Under the pieces are notes generated by a model. That model ran no database searches. It worked only from the letters and a program-made list of their open reading frames with translations, and was not told the DNA's origin. Made by a program: the position numbers and the translations under genes. Of a stretch of 61,865 bases of DNA, positions 989 to 53,449 are shown piece by piece. The DNA lies in the NCBI GenBank assembly GCA_024697025.1, contig JAILGH010000059.1, positions 1 to 61,865 on the forward strand, in the 5' to 3' direction. Each line of letters starts with the position of its first letter. Position 1 is the first letter of the stretch. This DNA is from Pseudobutyrivibrio sp. (GTDB taxonomy: Bacteria; Bacillota; Clostridia; Lachnospirales; Lachnospiraceae).

Positions 989-2245
989 ATGAAAGAACGT
1001 TATTATTTGGCCATAGATTTAAAGAGCTTTTATGCCAGCGTAGAGTGCATCGACAGGAAGCTAGATGTTATGACAACGCGGCTTGTGGTGGCAGATCCTG
1101 AGCGCAAGCGAGGCACCATATGTTTAGCTATTACCCCTGCCATGAAGGCTTTGGGCGTCAAGAACAGATGCCGTATATTCGAGATTCCACCGGACATTGA
1201 TTATATCGTGGCACCTCCTAGGATGAAGCGCTATATTCAGGTTTCAGCAGAGATTTACGAGATTTATCTTTCCTTTGTCGACAAGGAAGACATCCATGTT
1301 TACTCCATCGACGAGGCTTTTTTAGATGTGACCTCCTATCTTAGCCTATATAATCTCACCCCTAGGCAGCTCGCGCAGGCCATTATCGATAAGATTTATA
1401 AAAAAAGAGGGCTGAGGGCCACCTGTGGTATCGGCACCAACATGTACCTTGCCAAGGTTGCTCTTGATATTTTAGCCAAGCACTCTCCGGACTTTATTGC
1501 TCAACTTGACGAAGAATCCTACAAGAAGCGACTCTGGAGCCACCGTCCACTGACAGATTTTTGGCGTATTGGCTATGGCACCGCGAAGCATCTAAATTCC
1601 CTTGGCATATTTACCCAAGAGGATATCGCAAAGACACCACCCCAAATTTTACTGAAAGAATTCGGAGCTCAATCAGAATTCCTTATTGACCATGCCTGGG
1701 GCCTCGAGCCGTGTACAATCGCAGAAATCAAGAACTACAAGCAGAAATCCCACTCTCTTTCTGCTGGGCAGGTTTTGATGCGAGATTACACCTTTGATGA
1801 GGGACTAATCATAGTAAAAGAAATGGCCAATCAGCTATCCCTGGATATGGTTGCTGCCAATGTGGTAAGCAACAACCTCTCGCTATATGTAGGCTACAGT
1901 TATAACACTATGCCATCAAGCGGAGGCAGTACAACTTTGCAAGTTACAACTAATTCTGTGCGGATTATCACTGATGCATTCACGCAAATCTACAAAAATA
2001 TTGTGCCAAAGGACAGTCTTGTTCGCCGCCTAAATTTGAGTGCCAACTCCATTGTTAGCGACAGCTTTGAGCAATATAGCTTTTTTGTAGACCCTACAAT
2101 AATGGAAAAGGATAGAAATATTTCCCAATCTGTAAACGCCCTTAAGTCAAAGTTCGGTAAGAACGCTGTTTTGAAGGGCACAGATTTACAAGATGCCGCC
2201 ACCACCATAGAGAGAAATTCTCAGATCGGCGGTCATAAAGCATAA
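989..2245 (+). CDS. Y-family DNA polymerase (UmuC/DinB-like)
   Basis: This 418-residue translesion polymerase copies damaged templates at the fork. Its metal-binding acidic residues are visible: D10 in AIDLKSFYASVE, and D108-E109 in YSIDEA. The palm, fingers and thumb occupy roughly residues 1-240 and the little-finger domain 245-360. A QYSFF motif at 362-366 sits where related Firmicute enzymes carry the QLSLF beta-clamp motif and is a degenerate version of it. It is followed after 11 bases by a small partner gene and preceded by SOS boxes. It is closer to the Firmicute UmuC-like group than to classic DinB. Confidence 0.92.
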   Translation: MKERYYLAIDLKSFYASVECIDRKLDVMTTRLVVADPERKRGTICLAITPAMKALGVKNRCRIFEIPPDIDYIVAPPRMKRYIQVSAEIYEIYLSFVDKEDIHVYSIDEAFLDVTSYLSLYNLTPRQLAQAIIDKIYKKRGLRATCGIGTNMYLAKVALDILAKHSPDFIAQLDEESYKKRLWSHRPLTDFWRIGYGTAKHLNSLGIFTQEDIAKTPPQILLKEFGAQSEFLIDHAWGLEPCTIAEIKNYKQKSHSLSAGQVLMRDYTFDEGLIIVKEMANQLSLDMVAANVVSNNLSLYVGYSYNTMPSSGGSTTLQVTTNSVRIITDAFTQIYKNIVPKDSLVRRLNLSANSIVSDSFEQYSFFVDPTIMEKDRNISQSVNALKSKFGKNAVLKGTDLQDAATTIERNSQIGGHKA

Positions 2246-2256
2246 GGAGGATTATC

Positions 2257-2466
2257 ATGCCAAGAGCAGATAGAGCCAGCCAATTCATGCCCTTTGCAGC
2301 TTTGAAAGGATATGAAGAGGCCTTAAGATTAAAAGAAATAAATGAGGCTCCCCAGGGGGAGCCATCTGATATCGCGTTAGATTTTATGGAATATGAGTAC
2401 CTAGAATCCCAAGTTGAATTATCCCAAAGCCACATCAAGAGCCATCATAAGGGTGAATCCCAGTGA
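2257..2466 (+). CDS. small YolD-like partner protein of the Y-family polymerase
   Basis: A 69-residue protein opening with RADRASQFMPFAALKGYEEA, a sequence typical of small genes beside Y-family polymerases in Clostridia. A strong AAGGAGG precedes the ATG by 7 bases, and the gene is 11 bases behind the polymerase, so co-transcription is very likely. YolD-type proteins are thought to modulate the polymerase, but no mechanism can be read here. Its last 48 bases overlap the 3' end of the oppositely transcribed ZIP transporter gene. Confidence 0.75.
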   Translation: MPRADRASQFMPFAALKGYEEALRLKEINEAPQGEPSDIALDFMEYEYLESQVELSQSHIKSHHKGESQ

Positions 2467-3201
2467 AAACATTATAACACCCACGTTTGAATGCTCACCG
2501 CTGGACATCTCTGGAATGAGTTCCTCGACTACGACATATATCATTGCACCTGCTGCAAAGCTTAGAAAATATGGCATAGCCGGAACAATTATTCCTGCAG
2601 CAATTATTGTAATCATGGCAGCCACTGGCTCAACAGCACCAGAAATAAAACCATACCAAAATGACTTGCCGCGACTCATACCCTCGCCGTGAAGTGGCAT
2701 AGAAATAATGGCGCCCTCAGGAAAGTTCTGTATAGCTATACCAAGTGCTAATGCCATAGCCCCACCAACTGTGATAAGTGAGCTATTGGCAACCAAGCCT
2801 GCAAATACAGCGCCTACGGCCATTCCCTCAGGAATATTGTGAATTGTAACAGCAAGCACCATAAGCGTAGTCTTTTTGAATTTGCTGCTACGCCCCTCTG
2901 GCTTTTCTGCAAACATGTGCAAATGAGGAGTCAAACTATCAATCAACAATAGGAAAAATATTCCAAGCCAAAACCCAACTACAGCAGGTAAAAATGATAG
3001 TTTGCCCATATCCTCAGACTGAGTCATAGCTGGAATCAAAAGACTCCATATAGAAGCAGCAACCATAACACCACCGGCAAATCCAGTGAGGGCGCGCTCA
3101 ACCTGGCTGCTAAGATTTTTCTTCATAAAGAATACGCAGGCTGCGCCAGCAGTTGTTCCGATAAACGGAACCATAACCCCCCATATAATTTCTAAATTCA
3201 T
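2419..3201 (-). CDS. ZIP family divalent metal transporter
   Basis: A 260-residue inner-membrane permease with about eight hydrophobic segments. The two metal-site signatures are present in order: HNIPEG at 121-126 and NFPEG at 159-163. A His-containing loop (PHLH, 92-95) precedes them. The length is normal for ZupT-like members. GGAGG stands 6 bases before the ATG. Such proteins import Zn, Fe or Mn; the metal cannot be told from sequence. It is monocistronic. Confidence 0.9.
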   Translation of the reverse strand: MNLEIIWGVMVPFIGTTAGAACVFFMKKNLSSQVERALTGFAGGVMVAASIWSLLIPAMTQSEDMGKLSFLPAVVGFWLGIFFLLLIDSLTPHLHMFAEKPEGRSSKFKKTTLMVLAVTIHNIPEGMAVGAVFAGLVANSSLITVGGAMALALGIAIQNFPEGAIISMPLHGEGMSRGKSFWYGFISGAVEPVAAMITIIAAGIIVPAMPYFLSFAAGAMIYVVVEELIPEMSSGEHSNVGVIMFSLGFTLMMALDVALG

Positions 3202-3327
3202 AATAAGCCTCCAAAATTGTTCTAATTAATCGCGACTCTTACGATAGAAATCATTATACTCCCCGTCAGTTAGTTTTAACTAACCAAACTTATATTTAAA
3301 ATTCAAAATAGATTCGTAAAAAAGTAC

Positions 3328-3374
3328 AAAAAAAATGGAGCTTCGCCTTCGCATAAAGCGAAGACACAAAGCTC
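3328..3374 (-). terminator. intrinsic terminator
   Basis: On the minus strand a two-part hairpin (GAGCTT 69-74 side with 3338-3343; CTTCGC with GCGAAG at 3358-3363 and 3347-3352) is followed by eight T. It lies about 100 bases after the stop of the gene ending at 3476. Confidence 0.65.
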
Positions 3375-3475
3375 ACACCTCAAAAAAGATACATTTCATA
3401 CATGAGTATTATAACACAGAGCATTTTAAAATTCATCTTTTTTTCACAGAAAAAAATAAAATTTTACGGATATTT

Positions 3476-4228
3476 TTAATCGGATAAAACTAGATCTGAA
3501 CGGGCCATAATTAAATATCCATGCTCCTTGTCAAACACTTCTATTATGTTGCCTTCATCTCGCTTAACTCTGTATTCTTTGTTGTTACAAATGTTTTTAA
3601 CGATGGTTCCATCACTCCATCTATTGTACTTCTTTTCCTTAACTACAGGCTTGATATTAGTACTAACATCTACTTTAGTTTCTGTTTTTTTCTCTGAATC
3701 AACTTGAGTTTTTCTAGCAGACTCCTCAACTTTCTTTGTCTCTTGTTGAGTATTTATATCAGACTTTTTATTCTTAGGTAAGTCAAATAAAGTTATCTGC
3801 TGGTAAGAACTATTATTAGTCTTGGTGCTACGCTTTGCCCTATCCTTTTCCTCCACCGATTTGGTGGCAGCATCATAGGTAAGAGTAACCACACGATTCT
3901 CCAATTCGATTTTGAGAATACCTTCCTCAAATGACTTCTTCACCACCTTGGCACCTGTGTAATAGTCGTTATAGTAGTTGCTGATTGCGTTGTAAGCCTC
4001 CTGCTTTACCAAGAAATCATCCTTGGAACCGGCTCCCTTGCGCATTCTAAAATCCTCAACCACATTGGCCTTGTCATCACAGGACAGACTAATAATTCTA
4101 GTCTTGGTTTGAAGCTTAATTGAAGGGTCGTCAGCATCAAGCTGATCCTCCAAAACCTCAAACTCCTCTGGAAGGGAATCCATGTAATTTGCTATCTGTC
4201 TTCTCTTTGCTCCTGAGCCTGCTCCCAT
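3476..4228 (-). CDS. hypothetical protein with a beta-clamp-binding-like motif
   Basis: A 250-residue protein I do not recognise. Residues 1-135 look like a folded, charged domain without signal peptide or membrane segment. Residues 136-200 are Lys/Thr/Glu-rich and probably disordered, and they begin with QITLF at 144-148, which fits the QxxLF beta-sliding-clamp-binding pattern. Residues 205-250 form a small beta-rich end (YNRWSDGTIV...KEYRVKRDEGN). AGGGGG precedes the ATG. No neighbour indicates function. A clamp link is inference from five residues and could be chance. Confidence 0.7.
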   Translation of the reverse strand: MGAGSGAKRRQIANYMDSLPEEFEVLEDQLDADDPSIKLQTKTRIISLSCDDKANVVEDFRMRKGAGSKDDFLVKQEAYNAISNYYNDYYTGAKVVKKSFEEGILKIELENRVVTLTYDAATKSVEEKDRAKRSTKTNNSSYQQITLFDLPKNKKSDINTQQETKKVEESARKTQVDSEKKTETKVDVSTNIKPVVKEKKYNRWSDGTIVKNICNNKEYRVKRDEGNIIEVFDKEHGYLIMARSDLVLSD

Positions 4229-4413
4229 AAAGTGCCCCCTTGCTTGAAACCATTATACCGACTCCATTAACTATAAGATAATTTTAACACTCTCCTCCCA
4301 CAAATGGTATTACTTAACAGATAATTATTTAATAGACGAATCGATTTATCTTTGCATATATTAATTTTACATTTATAATTACAAATATACTTTAGATAGT
4401 AAGGGGGATTTCC

Positions 4414-18476: not shown

Positions 18477-18597
18477 AAGAAACCTCCTTCAACCTAGATT
18501 ATATCTAGCAAACTAGTAAATATTTTATCACACTACTTTAGCAAGATAAAGTCAAAAAAGTGTTGCTTGGCGTGGATTACAATTGATTTTTCTGCAA

Positions 18598-18624
18598 AGA
18601 AAAAAGCACAGGAAAAACCTGTGC
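18598..18624 (-). terminator. terminator ending the hairpin array
   Basis: On the minus strand GCACAGG, five T, CCTGTGC and then six T. It lies about 120 bases upstream of the lipoprotein start. It would end transcripts from the promoter at 18922-18950, either as a stand-alone RNA or as an attenuator. Confidence 0.85.
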
Positions 18625-18915
18625 CTAAATAGAGCATTAAAGTAGGTTTTATTGGTTCAAATGAAGGCACCAATAAAATCTGACTTTCATTTCATTCAAG
18701 TCAGACTACTTTCTTGAACTGAGTTCAAGAAAGTATCCCATTACGGAATTAAATAAGCTTGATGCTTATTTAATTCCTACACATTACTAATGCATGTCAA
18801 ACATTCATAACATTATTAATTAAATATATTATCTACCGACTAGGAAGCAACGCGTAATTAAAACACGATAACAGGCTCCCTAAACCGCAGTGCCGGTAGC
18901 ATTATCTCCCTTTCG
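18600..18915 (-). ncRNA. candidate structured RNA plus hairpin array, unknown family
   Basis: A consensus promoter would start a minus-strand transcript near 18915. The first 100 bases fold into one long arm: CTACCG with CGGTAG (closing, 18894-18899 side and 18835-18840 side), then TAGGGAGC with GCTTCCTA, then a CGTG/CGCG tip. Four more perfect hairpins and a terminator follow down to 18600. I find no good open reading frame. It does not match the riboswitch cores I know (TPP, FMN, SAM, purine, lysine, T-box, GEMM, cobalamin, yybP-ykoY). It may be a leader of the downstream importer or an independent RNA. Confidence 0.6.
18647..18777. repeat. four consecutive perfect hairpins
   Basis: In order: 10-bp stem 18647-18656/18669-18678; 8-bp stem 18679-18686/18698-18705; 13-bp stem 18707-18719/18723-18735 with 3-base loop; 14-bp stem 18745-18758/18764-18777 with 5-base loop. 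With the terminator at 18606-18624 this makes five hairpins in 172 bases, spaced 0 to 22 bases apart. Confidence 0.85.
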
Positions 18916-18921
18916 AGTATT

Positions 18922-18950
18922 ATAATACTACCTTGTTCGCTCTATGTCAA
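18922..18950 (-). promoter_or_regulatory. strong sigma-A promoter for the candidate RNA
   Basis: On the minus strand TTGACA (18945-18950), 17 bases, TATTAT (18922-18927). A 14-bp palindrome AGTATTATAATACT (18916-18929) covers the -10 region. Confidence 0.75.
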
Positions 18951-18978
18951 TACTTTTTTTGAAATTTTTTCAAGAGAA

Positions 18979-19004
18979 AAAAGCCAAGCTTAAGCTTGGC
19001 TTTT
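18979..19004. terminator. bidirectional-looking terminator after proC
   Basis: A perfect 26-bp palindrome, AAAAGCCAAGCTT and its complement, followed on the minus strand by more T. It lies 82 bases after the proC stop. Confidence 0.75.
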
Positions 19005-19033
19005 AAAATTCTAGGTTTTATTTAATTCCTGGG

Positions 19034-19078
19034 TTTTATTGGTGCAAATGTAAGCACCAATAAAATCTGACTTTCATT
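19034..19078. repeat. second copy of the TTTTATTGGT hairpin segment
   Basis: Forty-two of 45 bases match 18647-18691. The stem is longer here: TTTTATTGGTGC with GCACCAATAAAA (12 bp, 8-base loop). Flanking TTATTTAATTCC and TAATTCCTAC also recur at 18767-18780. It forms the proC 3' untranslated region. Confidence 0.8.
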
Positions 19079-19085
19079 CTAATTC

Positions 19086-19880
19086 CTACAAATCTCTAGA
19101 CTTCTCAATACATACTCTCTCAGCTTCAATAACTGCATTTCTAAAACCAAGAGCCTCTAAGGAAGCAACAGCTTCGATTGTAGTACCTCCTGGACTACAA
19201 ACTGCATCCTTCAATGCGCCTGGATGCTCTCCTGTTTCAAGCACCATCTTTGCAGAGCCAAGAACTGCCTGCGCCGCAAATTTGTATGCCTGATTTCTAG
19301 GCATTCCCTCTGCAACAGCCCCATCTGCTAATGCTTCGATAAACATATATACGTAAGCAGGTGAAGAACCACTGATACCTACTACTGCATCCTGAAGCTT
19401 CTCAGGAACAATCTCTGCCTCTCCAAATGATTCAAATAACTTAAGCACAGTCTCGCACTCGTCATCTGTAACAAGGGCATTTGGGCTGAGGGCGCTCATG
19501 CCTTCTCCAACAAGCGCAGGTGTGTTTGGCATTACGCGAATAAGCTTAATCTCTTTTCCAAACAAGCCTGTAAGCTTCTCAAGAGACTGACCTGCAGCAA
19601 TGCTTACAACAACCTTTCCTGTAAAATCTAAATTCTTGATTCCCTCAATTGCATCTGGAAGATACTGTGGCTTTACAGCAAGGAAAATGATGTCTGCAAA
19701 ATTAACTACATCTGCGTTGCTTGTGCTTGTGTTTACTCCAAACTCCTCAGCAACTCTATCAAGAACAGCCTGAAAGATATCACTAGCCATTACATTTTCA
19801 GCATCAACAATCCCTGATTTTACCATGCCACCCATCATGGCACTTCCCATGTTACCTGTTCCAATAAAACCAATTTTCAT
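19086..19880 (-). CDS. proC: pyrroline-5-carboxylate reductase
   Basis: A 264-residue cytoplasmic enzyme making proline from pyrroline-5-carboxylate with NAD(P)H. The Rossmann motif GFIGTGNMGSAM is at the N terminus and the C-terminal signature SPGGTTIEA(V)ASLE is present. The ATG at 19880 has GGAG 8 bases upstream; the TTG at 19892 is rejected. It lies 36 bases after an aminotransferase gene on the same strand. Its 3' untranslated region carries the repeat shared with 18.65 kb. Confidence 0.94.
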   Translation of the reverse strand: MKIGFIGTGNMGSAMMGGMVKSGIVDAENVMASDIFQAVLDRVAEEFGVNTSTSNADVVNFADIIFLAVKPQYLPDAIEGIKNLDFTGKVVVSIAAGQSLEKLTGLFGKEIKLIRVMPNTPALVGEGMSALSPNALVTDDECETVLKLFESFGEAEIVPEKLQDAVVGISGSSPAYVYMFIEALADGAVAEGMPRNQAYKFAAQAVLGSAKMVLETGEHPGALKDAVCSPGGTTIEAVASLEALGFRNAVIEAERVCIEKSRDL

Positions 19881-31210: not shown

Positions 31211-31244
31211 TTTTATCGCAGTGTTATGAATAAAATTGGATTAT

Positions 31245-31281
31245 AAAAAGGCTAGATGCAAATCGCATCTAGCCTTTTTTT
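31245..31281. terminator. bidirectional terminator
   Basis: AAAAAGGCTAGATGC (31245-31259) pairs with GCATCTAGCCTTTTT (31265-31279) with a 5-base loop; A-run and T-run flank it. It serves the convergent DUF6465 and beta-helix genes. Confidence 0.9.
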
Positions 31282-31288
31282 GTAGTTA

Positions 31289-33103
31289 TTAATGTCTGCA
31301 AGAATGCTTGTCGAACGATCTACAATGATTCCTATGATGATGGTGATGATGATGCTCATCATCGTCGCCGTCATCTTCATCTTCGACATCTTCGTCGTCG
31401 ACATTCTCGTCTTCAACGTCTTCGTCGTCAATGTTCTCATCATCAATGTTTTCGTCATCGATGTTCTCATCATCAATGTTCTCGTCATCAATGTTCTCAT
31501 CATCAATGTTCTCATCATCAATGTTCTCATCGTCTACATCTTCAACATCTGGTTTGTCTGTATCCACTAAATTTTGCTCTGTTCCATTAGCTCCATAACC
31601 AGCCAAATCATCTGGTGAAGAAACATTAGCGCTCATATCAGACACATCGATGCCTTCAAGCTTAAACTGACCAACACCCTCTGTCTTAAACTTCTTATCA
31701 TTTGTCATGTTGTCAGTAAATGTATTGCCCTCAGAATACTTACTTTCTTCAAACGCCTCGTCATAAGCACGAGCCTTACCATCTGTGATGAAAAGATTCT
31801 TTTCAAATACGTTTGCTGGATAATCTCCTGACTTCAAGTTATCCGCATCTGCTGTATGCTGTACCTTTAGGCAAACATTCTCGCTGTTGTAAACTGTATT
31901 GTTTGTAAACTCGCAACCATACACAATTTCTCTCTCTTCTTCATAACCTCCGATACAAATACCGGCCTGACCATTGTTCTCATAGAGAGTGTTGTTGGTT
32001 ACCTTAATACCTGTAACTGAGAAGTCGAACGACTTATCCTTTTGGATAACACGCTCAGAAGCGATTTCTACACCAATATCGCAATTACGAACGAAGTTGT
32101 TGGCGATAGTGATGTCACATCCACCATCCACATAAATACCATCGGCACTAGCCTCTCTGTAATCAGTTCCGGCTGGTCTTGGATTCTCCTCATCATAAGG
32201 ATATGCTGGATTGCCTGTACTTGAGATATTTTCAACGATGTTTCCTGAAATCACACCACCACGAGCTCTATCTCTCATGGCATCCTCAAGAGTAACGCCA
32301 TCCTTCAAAGTCTCGCCACCATCATTTATATTAACTGTCTTCTCAAAACCGATGGCATCGATACCGATGTTGTCGTTATCATGAACATGGTTGTTCAAAA
32401 TCTTGAAATTATCTACATTACCATTTACAACGAGAGACTCACTCTGTCCAAGTCTGAGATTGTAAATCTCGCATCCCTCAATAGTAACGTTATTAATACC
32501 CTCATTTTCTTTATACATACCCTGGACTAAAATACCATGTGAATTGAAGCCTACATCTAAGACCTTGCCTGTGGTATCTCCATCCTCTGTATTATAATTA
32601 CATCCCATATCGTGAATCTTACACTTAGAGATATTGATGTCACTTAACCCTGGATTAACCTTAATACCCATCGGAGACACATCTGGATTTGCGCTATCCA
32701 AATATAAGTGCTCTATCTCGATATTATTAACTGTTACGCCACTGGCGCAAACATTAATCATTGCAAACTTATCTTCTGTAGGAAGGATATCATTCTTTCT
32801 AGGATTTGCCTTTTCCTCTTCTGTTTCATCTGGAACATAAGCGTCAAGGATTGTTCCTTCCTCTCCAACTAACGAAATATTATTTTTATCTATATTTAAT
32901 TGTTCGTGATATACTCCCGCAGGAATATATACAGTATCGCCTTCTTGGGCTACCGCTAAAGCTTCGTTGATAGTTGCCGCGTCTTCACCTACTCTAATAG
33001 TATTTCCAGCTGCATCAACTGTAATAAACTGCGTAGAAAATAATCCAGCTGCGAAACCTGCAGCCAAAACGCTAGCTGCAAAAGCTTTTGTTTTATTCCT
33101 CAT
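31289..33103 (-). CDS. secreted right-handed beta-helix protein with acidic repeat and poly-His tail
   Basis: A 604-residue exported protein. A signal peptide (1 to about 32) is followed by a right-handed parallel beta-helix (about 35-470: INEALAVAQEGDTVYIPAGVY ... NISLVGEEGTILDA ... VTVNNIEI ... ITIANNFVRNC). This pectate-lyase-like fold often binds polysaccharide; catalytic residues cannot be assigned. The C terminus has seven DDENI pentads, five degenerate pentads, then seven consecutive His and a basic, Cys-containing end. The tail is likely to bind divalent metal. The encoding 15-bp repeats could change number by slippage. Confidence 0.85.
   Translation of the reverse strand: MRNKTKAFAASVLAAGFAAGLFSTQFITVDAAGNTIRVGEDAATINEALAVAQEGDTVYIPAGVYHEQLNIDKNNISLVGEEGTILDAYVPDETEEEKANPRKNDILPTEDKFAMINVCASGVTVNNIEIEHLYLDSANPDVSPMGIKVNPGLSDINISKCKIHDMGCNYNTEDGDTTGKVLDVGFNSHGILVQGMYKENEGINNVTIEGCEIYNLRLGQSESLVVNGNVDNFKILNNHVHDNDNIGIDAIGFEKTVNINDGGETLKDGVTLEDAMRDRARGGVISGNIVENISSTGNPAYPYDEENPRPAGTDYREASADGIYVDGGCDITIANNFVRNCDIGVEIASERVIQKDKSFDFSVTGIKVTNNTLYENNGQAGICIGGYEEEREIVYGCEFTNNTVYNSENVCLKVQHTADADNLKSGDYPANVFEKNLFITDGKARAYDEAFEESKYSEGNTFTDNMTNDKKFKTEGVGQFKLEGIDVSDMSANVSSPDDLAGYGANGTEQNLVDTDKPDVEDVDDENIDDENIDDENIDDENIDDENIDDENIDDENIDDEDVEDENVDDEDVEDEDDGDDDEHHHHHHHRNHCRSFDKHSCRH
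31400..31545 (-). repeat. 15-bp tandem repeat inside the beta-helix gene
   Basis: About twelve in-frame 15-bp units encode (DDENI)n and variants. Central units differ mainly at third codon positions. It is coding and not a CRISPR array. Confidence 0.85.
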
Positions 33104-44048: not shown

Positions 44049-44079
44049 ACGCATTCCAATTGTCTCCTACTAAAAATAG

Positions 44080-44162
44080 GCATCCCTACGTTGGCATTAT
44101 CCAAATCAGGTTCTCGGTCGAAGGTCACACCTTCCTCTCAGCCTGTCTACAAGCTCCCGTTT
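44080..44162 (-). promoter_or_regulatory. TPP (THI-box) riboswitch
   Basis: The minus-strand RNA contains GGGAGC, the pyrimidine-sensing GGCUGAGAGG, then ACCUGAUUUGGAUAAUGCCA and GCGUAGGGA-type ending (here ACGUAGGGAUGCC). These are the conserved core of the TPP aptamer. It heads thiWMEDSFGHC. Confidence 0.96.
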
Positions 44163-44245
44163 ATTAAATTGAACGTTCTATAATAGTATAAGTGTTTTTA
44201 ATGTAATTTCAAGTAAATTTTTATCGTTAATAAATCTTTTTTAAA

Positions 44246-53219: not shown

Positions 53220-53241
53220 ATTATACTCCTATCTCCTCGTT

Positions 53242-53287
53242 ACTAGTGTACCATGTGTATAGTACACTAGTGTTATATGTCTGTCAA
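53242..53287 (-). promoter_or_regulatory. promoter and palindromic operator of the YtrA-type operon
   Basis: On the minus strand TTGACA (53282-53287), 17 bases, TACTAT (53259-53264). ACTAGTGTAC (53242-53251) and GTACACTAGT (53262-53271) are perfect 10-bp inverted arms with a 10-base centre, covering the -10 box. Confidence 0.8.
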
Positions 53288-53342
53288 CCGATTATTTGAA
53301 ATCTTCTGAAAATTTTTCATTGACCACTGCTTTAGATACACG

Positions 53343-53368
53343 AAAAGAGCCTCGGCGAACCGAGACTC
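53343..53368 (-). terminator. xylB terminator
   Basis: On the minus strand GAGTCTCGG ttcg CCGAGGCTC (53360-53368 with 53347-53355) followed by TTTT, about 80 bases after xylB. Confidence 0.75.
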
Positions 53369-53449
53369 CTTTCTTTGGATTTATTCTTTAATAGGATTTA
53401 TTTTGAAGATTTAGCCTATTGGAAAAAGGCAAATCCTTCAAGCGTAATA

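Follow-up and report, generated by a model that had tools for sequence, protein, structure and literature searches.

A dispersed four-hairpin repeat, placed mostly at gene stop codons in Pseudobutyrivibrio, and its copy in a composite intergenic region

A composite intergenic region

Is the strongly structured DNA ahead of a TrpX-like ABC importer in Pseudobutyrivibrio a leader of that importer, a small RNA in its own right, or something else? The region occupies positions 18600-18950 on the minus strand of contig JAILGH010000059.1 (Pseudobutyrivibrio sp., GCA_024697025.1), within the stretch of 61,865 nt that was analysed and is here called the window; unless a strand is given, the features discussed below lie on the minus strand. 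An earlier note had described a promoter-driven RNA of no known family that passes through four perfect hairpins to an intrinsic terminator, and had proposed a riboswitch-like leader or an independent small RNA. That description is partly confirmed and its interpretation partly supported. Very probably 18600-18950 is a composite intergenic region, the hairpins of which are one full copy of a mobile, GTAG-tagged four-hairpin element that occurs genus-wide and mostly at gene stops.

The 313 nt of the region fold with a z-score of -7.8 against shuffles, a value that is owed to the repeat at 18645-18780 (z -8.4) and the terminator stretch at 18600-18644 (z -4.7), where the excess is located. The intrinsic terminator that had been seen at the end of the region is present at 18626-18604, with nine pairs and a U-rich tail. 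The claim that no known family is represented also stands: in the Rfam scan that the earlier note had called for, no Rfam 15 family matched the region at gathering scores, and at E<=5 the 25 matches to the stretch 18480-19085 belong to unrelated families, all of them below their own gathering scores and none near them. The sole match of the window at gathering scores is a TPP riboswitch at 44066-44170 (minus strand, 59.2 bits).

Structure, dispersal and placement of the repeat

The element has the layout GTAG, H1, CGTA linker, H2, GTC, H3, H4, AACC, and spans about 120-140 nt. In the window copy, delimited by genome searches, covariance model and fold, the hairpins lie at 18777-18745 (H1), 18735-18707 (H2), 18706-18678 (H3) and 18677-18648 (H4). 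All four hairpins of the earlier description are thus there, but only the first two are perfect 14-nt inverted repeats; H4 has 13-nt arms at 92%, and H3 forms nine pairs in the fold, which falls below the length needed for the inverted-repeat listing. When 11 copies are aligned, 98.5% of cells pair, against 33-49% in slid controls, and in 23 of 45 pairs both partners vary. An alignment of 87 matches (82 distinct), which leans towards the structure because it was fitted to the model, gives 97.2% paired cells, changes on both sides in 45/45 pairs and 34-47% in slid controls. The covariation among homologues that had been named as a test is therefore very strong, but it lies within the repeat family. 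Two of the 87 are plus-strand window matches, images of palindromic minus-strand copies, and were dropped from all counts of context, leaving 85. Matches start with xTAG in 67/85 cases (GTAG in 45 of these), with H1 directly after. A gathering-score scan of 20 loci with other copies likewise returned no Rfam match.

The repeat is widely dispersed. A search of the own genome (G000) with the region turned up other copies, 94% and 78% identical, as well as an adjoining partial copy at 19032-19078. Matches were obtained by blastn in 8 of the 29 genus genomes, own included, and a covariance model built from the 11 copies detects the repeat at E<=0.01 in at least 24 of the 29, a lower bound, since 114 of some 1,800-4,300 first-look candidates were scored per genome. 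In the wider family at least 2 of 299 genomes were positive at E<=1e-5, the own and one weak case outside the genus (2.3e-7, two adjacent matches); this search, with 11 candidates scored per genome, was shallow enough to miss one genome positive in the genus search and does not settle the family limit. Two further stretches of the window, 31243-31369 (plus strand) and 53239-53376 (minus strand), match the element model weakly with filters off (26 and 23 bits) and are possibly decayed copies or chance. No copy was found in plasmids and phages at E<=0.01, nor in viral contigs with one exact pattern, and the open-access literature, by titles and abstract openings, yielded no paper on this repeat.

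Mobility is argued for by one genome, G009, in which seven copies at 97-100% identity stand at different places (L301-L307, at 801-923) with differing 24-nt upstream flanks. These copies are scattered, with no long frame ending within -60 to +45, and are probably a recent burst. It was observed that this subfamily starts with ATAGATT and sits away from gene stops. Adjacent tandem matches occur in four genomes (G010, G021, G018 and G009). Mobilisation by a Y1 transposase (PF01797) was considered and found no support: the family is present in 10 of the 29 genus genomes but absent from the own genome (91% complete), and the repeat model found no copy in 16 fetched Y1 loci.

The repeat usually lies on a gene's stop codon, mostly in sense orientation and often before a co-directional next gene. 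For 55 of the 85 matches, the stop codon of a same-strand frame of at least 60 codons falls at +4 to +21 of the repeat, against 1/85 in a mirror control on the opposite strand at the other end. These 55 stops are confined to two of the three reading frames (29 and 26 cases; third frame 0), and are supplied by the TAG of xTAG or by an in-frame stop within the 5' arm of H1. Among the remaining matches, 19/85 have no frame of at least 60 codons ending within -150 to +60, and for 11/85 a frame ends elsewhere; these 11 include four copies from the interior of tandem arrays and the copy at proC, where the match extends into the gene. Downstream, 49 of the 83 matches outside the window are followed within 160 nt by the start of a co-directional frame of at least 60 codons. 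When upstream frames are taken over a narrower range they form 30 clusters, 27 of them with a stop at +4 to +21; one of these 27, L272 with 67 codons, may not be a true gene. A Pfam scan of representatives of 28 clusters gave a family for 25 and none for three. The host families with stops in range include Hsp70 (DnaK), Cpn10 (GroES), ATP synthase c, trigger factor, ribosomal proteins L9 and S12, RNA polymerase Rpb1 domain 5 (by our reading RpoC), His_biosynth (by our reading HisF), thiolase and several transport proteins. An MnmG gene ending at -8 and an RpiB-type gene ending at -24 fall outside the range. In the own genome, ten model matches, two of them palindromic images, correspond to eight copies, to which a 36-nt fragment on C68 is added. 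Six of the copies lie at stop codons, those of atpE, a HisF-type gene, a thiolase, an NlpA lipoprotein, ribosomal L9 and a periplasmic binding protein, with families from Pfam and two assigned via a cluster representative of another genome. The repeat is a structured, mobile and stop-codon-anchored element that is absent from Rfam 15.

Close relatives provide sites both with and without it. In the atpE-atpF spacer of the 26 genomes with atpE, read by eye, the full element is present in five (G000, G007, G009, G010, G022), a remnant in G018, another insert in two (G021, G028) and a short spacer in 18. Between dnaK and dnaJ the element was seen by eye in 7 of 26 genomes, six of which (G002, G009, G010, G012, G020, G022) were also matched by the model, G025 having been recognised by eye only; at the threshold applied, no DnaK was matched in the own genome. 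In genomes lacking the element, the dnaK-dnaJ spacer is occupied by a simple hairpin or by some other structured insert, except in G004 and G019, where dnaJ follows dnaK almost directly with neither repeat nor other insert. By eye, spacers L355, L357, L372, L373, L376 and L379 carry structured inserts of a GCTGTGAAA...TTTCAC type, and L360, L362 and L368 simple hairpins in species without the four-hairpin element. Since no U tract follows H4, the element is unlikely to act as a terminator inside these operons.

What, then, might the repeat do for its hosts? By analogy with REP elements, this GTAG-REP-like mobile element probably protects the cistrons upstream of it or tunes their output. Were it transcribed with the gene, its four stems would guard the upstream cistron against 3' exonucleases; H1, lying against the stop codon or enclosing it, would respond to the terminating ribosome; and the two effects together would tune the ratio of upstream to downstream gene products. 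The fuller proposal is put forward tentatively, with well under even confidence: a mobile RNA module that would settle on the stops of housekeeping genes (for chaperones, ribosomal proteins, RNA polymerase and ATP synthase) and, through a hairpin at or around the stop and three further covarying hairpins behind it, would couple translation termination to mRNA stability and operon product ratio, forming a regulatory class outside Rfam 15. Counting against the overall reading of the region and its repeat are the window copy, which departs from the stop-codon rule, the matches without a nearby frame (19/85) or with one ending elsewhere (11/85), the negative searches for a mobilising Y1 enzyme, the single weak case outside the genus in the shallow family search, and the two dnaK-dnaJ species without any insert.

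The repeat may instead be selfish, with no host function and tolerated at stop codons only as the least harmful sites, a reading to which we give appreciable weight while still judging it rather improbable. The seven near-identical copies of G009 away from gene stops and the many species with sites that lack the repeat are what it would lead one to expect, and REP elements are themselves reported, in the text of Di Nocera (2013, PMC3733652), to supply stop codons. It accords less well with compensatory changes in all four stems across species, with placement on the sense side only (55/85 against 1/85), and with dnaK-dnaJ, where most species without the repeat have another hairpin or structured insert, two having none. 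If the stop-codon placement is functional, as the protecting or tuning role would have it, a portable RNA module could set operon product ratios in these bacteria, and close relatives with and without the element at atpE-atpF and dnaK-dnaJ make such a role directly testable.

The window copy, its 5' segment and the importer

The window copy itself is an exception to the stop-codon rule, with no gene stop before it. The stop codon of proC (TAG, 19088-19086) stands at the start of an internally deleted copy of the element at 19089-19032, which the model matched as 19032-19141, running into proC, and whose true start was read from the sequence. This copy is followed by CAGGAATTAAATAA at 19031-19018, which looks like the opening 14 nt of another tandem unit, and then by a predicted intrinsic terminator downstream of proC (19004-18979). 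The AACC/CAGG junction at the proC array resembles the tandem copies in L273. A 13-nt direct repeat, AGGAATTAAATAA, stands at 19030-19018 and again at 18778-18766, on both sides of a 239-nt segment (19017-18779) that holds this terminator, the promoter-like site and the core described below; because of this repeat, the window copy may once have stood in tandem within the proC array, which the segment, as a possible insertion, then divided. A displaced member of the family, the copy would, if the promoter at 18950 fires, form the 3' part of a noncoding transcript of about 310 nt ending at 18604.

That promoter is a predicted sigma-70-like site, TTGACA-17-TATTAT, at 18950-18922. The minus-strand promoter of the earlier note is thus present and matches at 11/12 positions, but its consensus quality is weak evidence, since seven sites scoring 11/12 or better occur in the window, where 20 Markov simulations yield 2.15 on average (range 0-5). 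Overlapping its -10 box is a perfect 14-bp palindrome, AGTATTATAATACT, at 18929-18916, which could be an operator. The absence of an open frame that had been claimed is nearly right: a putative frame of 14 codons (MLPALRFREPVIVF) is read at 18902-18858, behind an SD-like AAAGGGAG at 18913-18906. The core arm, an orphan sequence of 67 nt at 18899-18833, does show the three paired segments in the fold, with z -2.3 to -2.7 for a core picked after being seen. The 5' segment from the presumed start to the repeat (18916-18781, 136 nt) reaches only z -0.96, and 27 of 200 shuffles fold as well. With the repeat removed and the terminator kept, z is -2.6 for the remaining 177 nt; that the DNA on either side of the repeat might fold into a single hairpin once joined was rejected, the junction having z +0.19.

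Homologues of the core were sought in several ways. Among the 29 genus genomes, blastn at E<=10 gave no match outside the own genome better than 0.03. A single-sequence covariance model matched weakly in 4 of 298 other family genomes (E<=0.1) and in 1 of 28 other genus genomes (E<=1); all five matches, including one in L184 that resembles an RsmI-like gene, are taken as chance because each sits inside a same-strand open frame (176-431 codons), and a conserved small-RNA core was rejected over the 29 genus and 299 family genomes on the same grounds. The DNA 3' of proC was read by eye for 25 of the 30 matches outside the own genome, one of these flanks being only about 180 nt long, and bore no trace of the core. 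Core patterns with up to two mismatches occurred in 74 fetched trpX loci only at the window's own place. The core region gave one match of 26-30 nt each in phages and in plasmids, outside the core arm, and none in viral contigs for two exact patterns. By these searches the 5' segment is unconserved DNA that may or may not be transcribed.

These results bear on the second of the earlier proposals, an independent small RNA gene in which transcription from 18950 would yield an RNA of about 310 nt ending at 18604, the core acting alone or by base pairing and the repeat being a later insertion in the 3' half. Such a gene is conceivable because the 11/12 promoter-like site and the terminator bracket the region, and the z-scores of the core alone and of the 177 nt without the repeat point the same way. 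The hairpins, however, belong to a dispersed repeat and not to one dedicated RNA; no convincing homologue of the core turned up among the 29 genus and 299 family genomes, the complete 5' segment does not fold exceptionally, and promoter-like sites of equal quality number seven in the window. We regard the small-RNA gene as doubtful, while a species-specific small transcript from the region is possible.

The importer has a predicted promoter of its own. Its first gene encodes a TrpX-like substrate-binding protein (18476-17424; NF041285, 203.7 bits against a cut-off of 390), and between the terminator and the start of this gene lie a predicted operator, the inverted repeat CTTTATCTTGCTAAAG at 18551-18536, and an extended -10, TGATAAAAT, at 18530-18522. 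Both are conserved in relatives: where upstream DNA could be read, TTTAA-spacer-TAAAG followed by TGnTA is found at 19/19 Pseudobutyrivibrio trpX loci. The window operator is one base off, with TTTAT instead of TTTAA, and a stricter form of the operator pattern is found at 18/19 of these loci and at 0/52 others. CTTTATCTTGCTAAAG is a candidate site for an amino-acid-responsive repressor, conceivably of TrpR type. The comparison upstream of orthologous importers that had been suggested detected no conserved aptamer, whether core or repeat, the repeat model finding nothing at E<=0.01 in the 71 loci scanned of the 74 fetched. A riboswitch or attenuator leader controlling the importer, for which the upstream position on the same strand and the terminator before the gene would speak, is accordingly rejected as extremely improbable on the importer's separate conserved operator and extended -10, the trpX-locus scans, the core searches and the Rfam results. 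Given the importer's own predicted promoter, the window copy very probably does not regulate it, and a riboswitch candidate is removed at 18600-18950.

Comparison with known repeat systems

Short, dispersed and structured intergenic repeats are familiar from elements of the BOX, RUP and ERIC type, and set side by side by description the present element shares these properties with them; to our knowledge, precise anchoring at stop codons is not among the features of those families. A closer likeness is to the GTAG-tagged REP elements, small palindromes of 20-40 bp that, in the text of Di Nocera (2013, PMC3733652), belong predominantly to gamma-Proteobacteria where they bear the GTAG tag; that text, figures aside, contains neither 'Firmicutes' nor 'clostridi'. 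As in those elements, GTAG or xTAG stands at the end of a palindrome, the copies are dispersed and extragenic, mostly downstream of genes, and their termini supply stop codons. Unlike them, the Pseudobutyrivibrio element consists of four different hairpins in about 120-140 nt instead of one small palindrome, and no Y1/RAYT-type gene was found beside it in the 16 Y1 loci.

A further parallel is provided by work cited in the RepRanger paper (PMC12306157), according to which ribosomes stall at REPs that lie no more than 15 nt from a stop codon. The element likewise places a stable hairpin at or beside the stop codon, but here the 5' arm of H1 often contains the stop itself, and H1 is succeeded by three further hairpins. 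It may thus work like REPs while departing from them in two defining features, the single small palindrome and the association with a RAYT-type transposase. If its placement is functional, REP-like repeats at stop codons would extend to the Lachnospiraceae, and in a more complex form.
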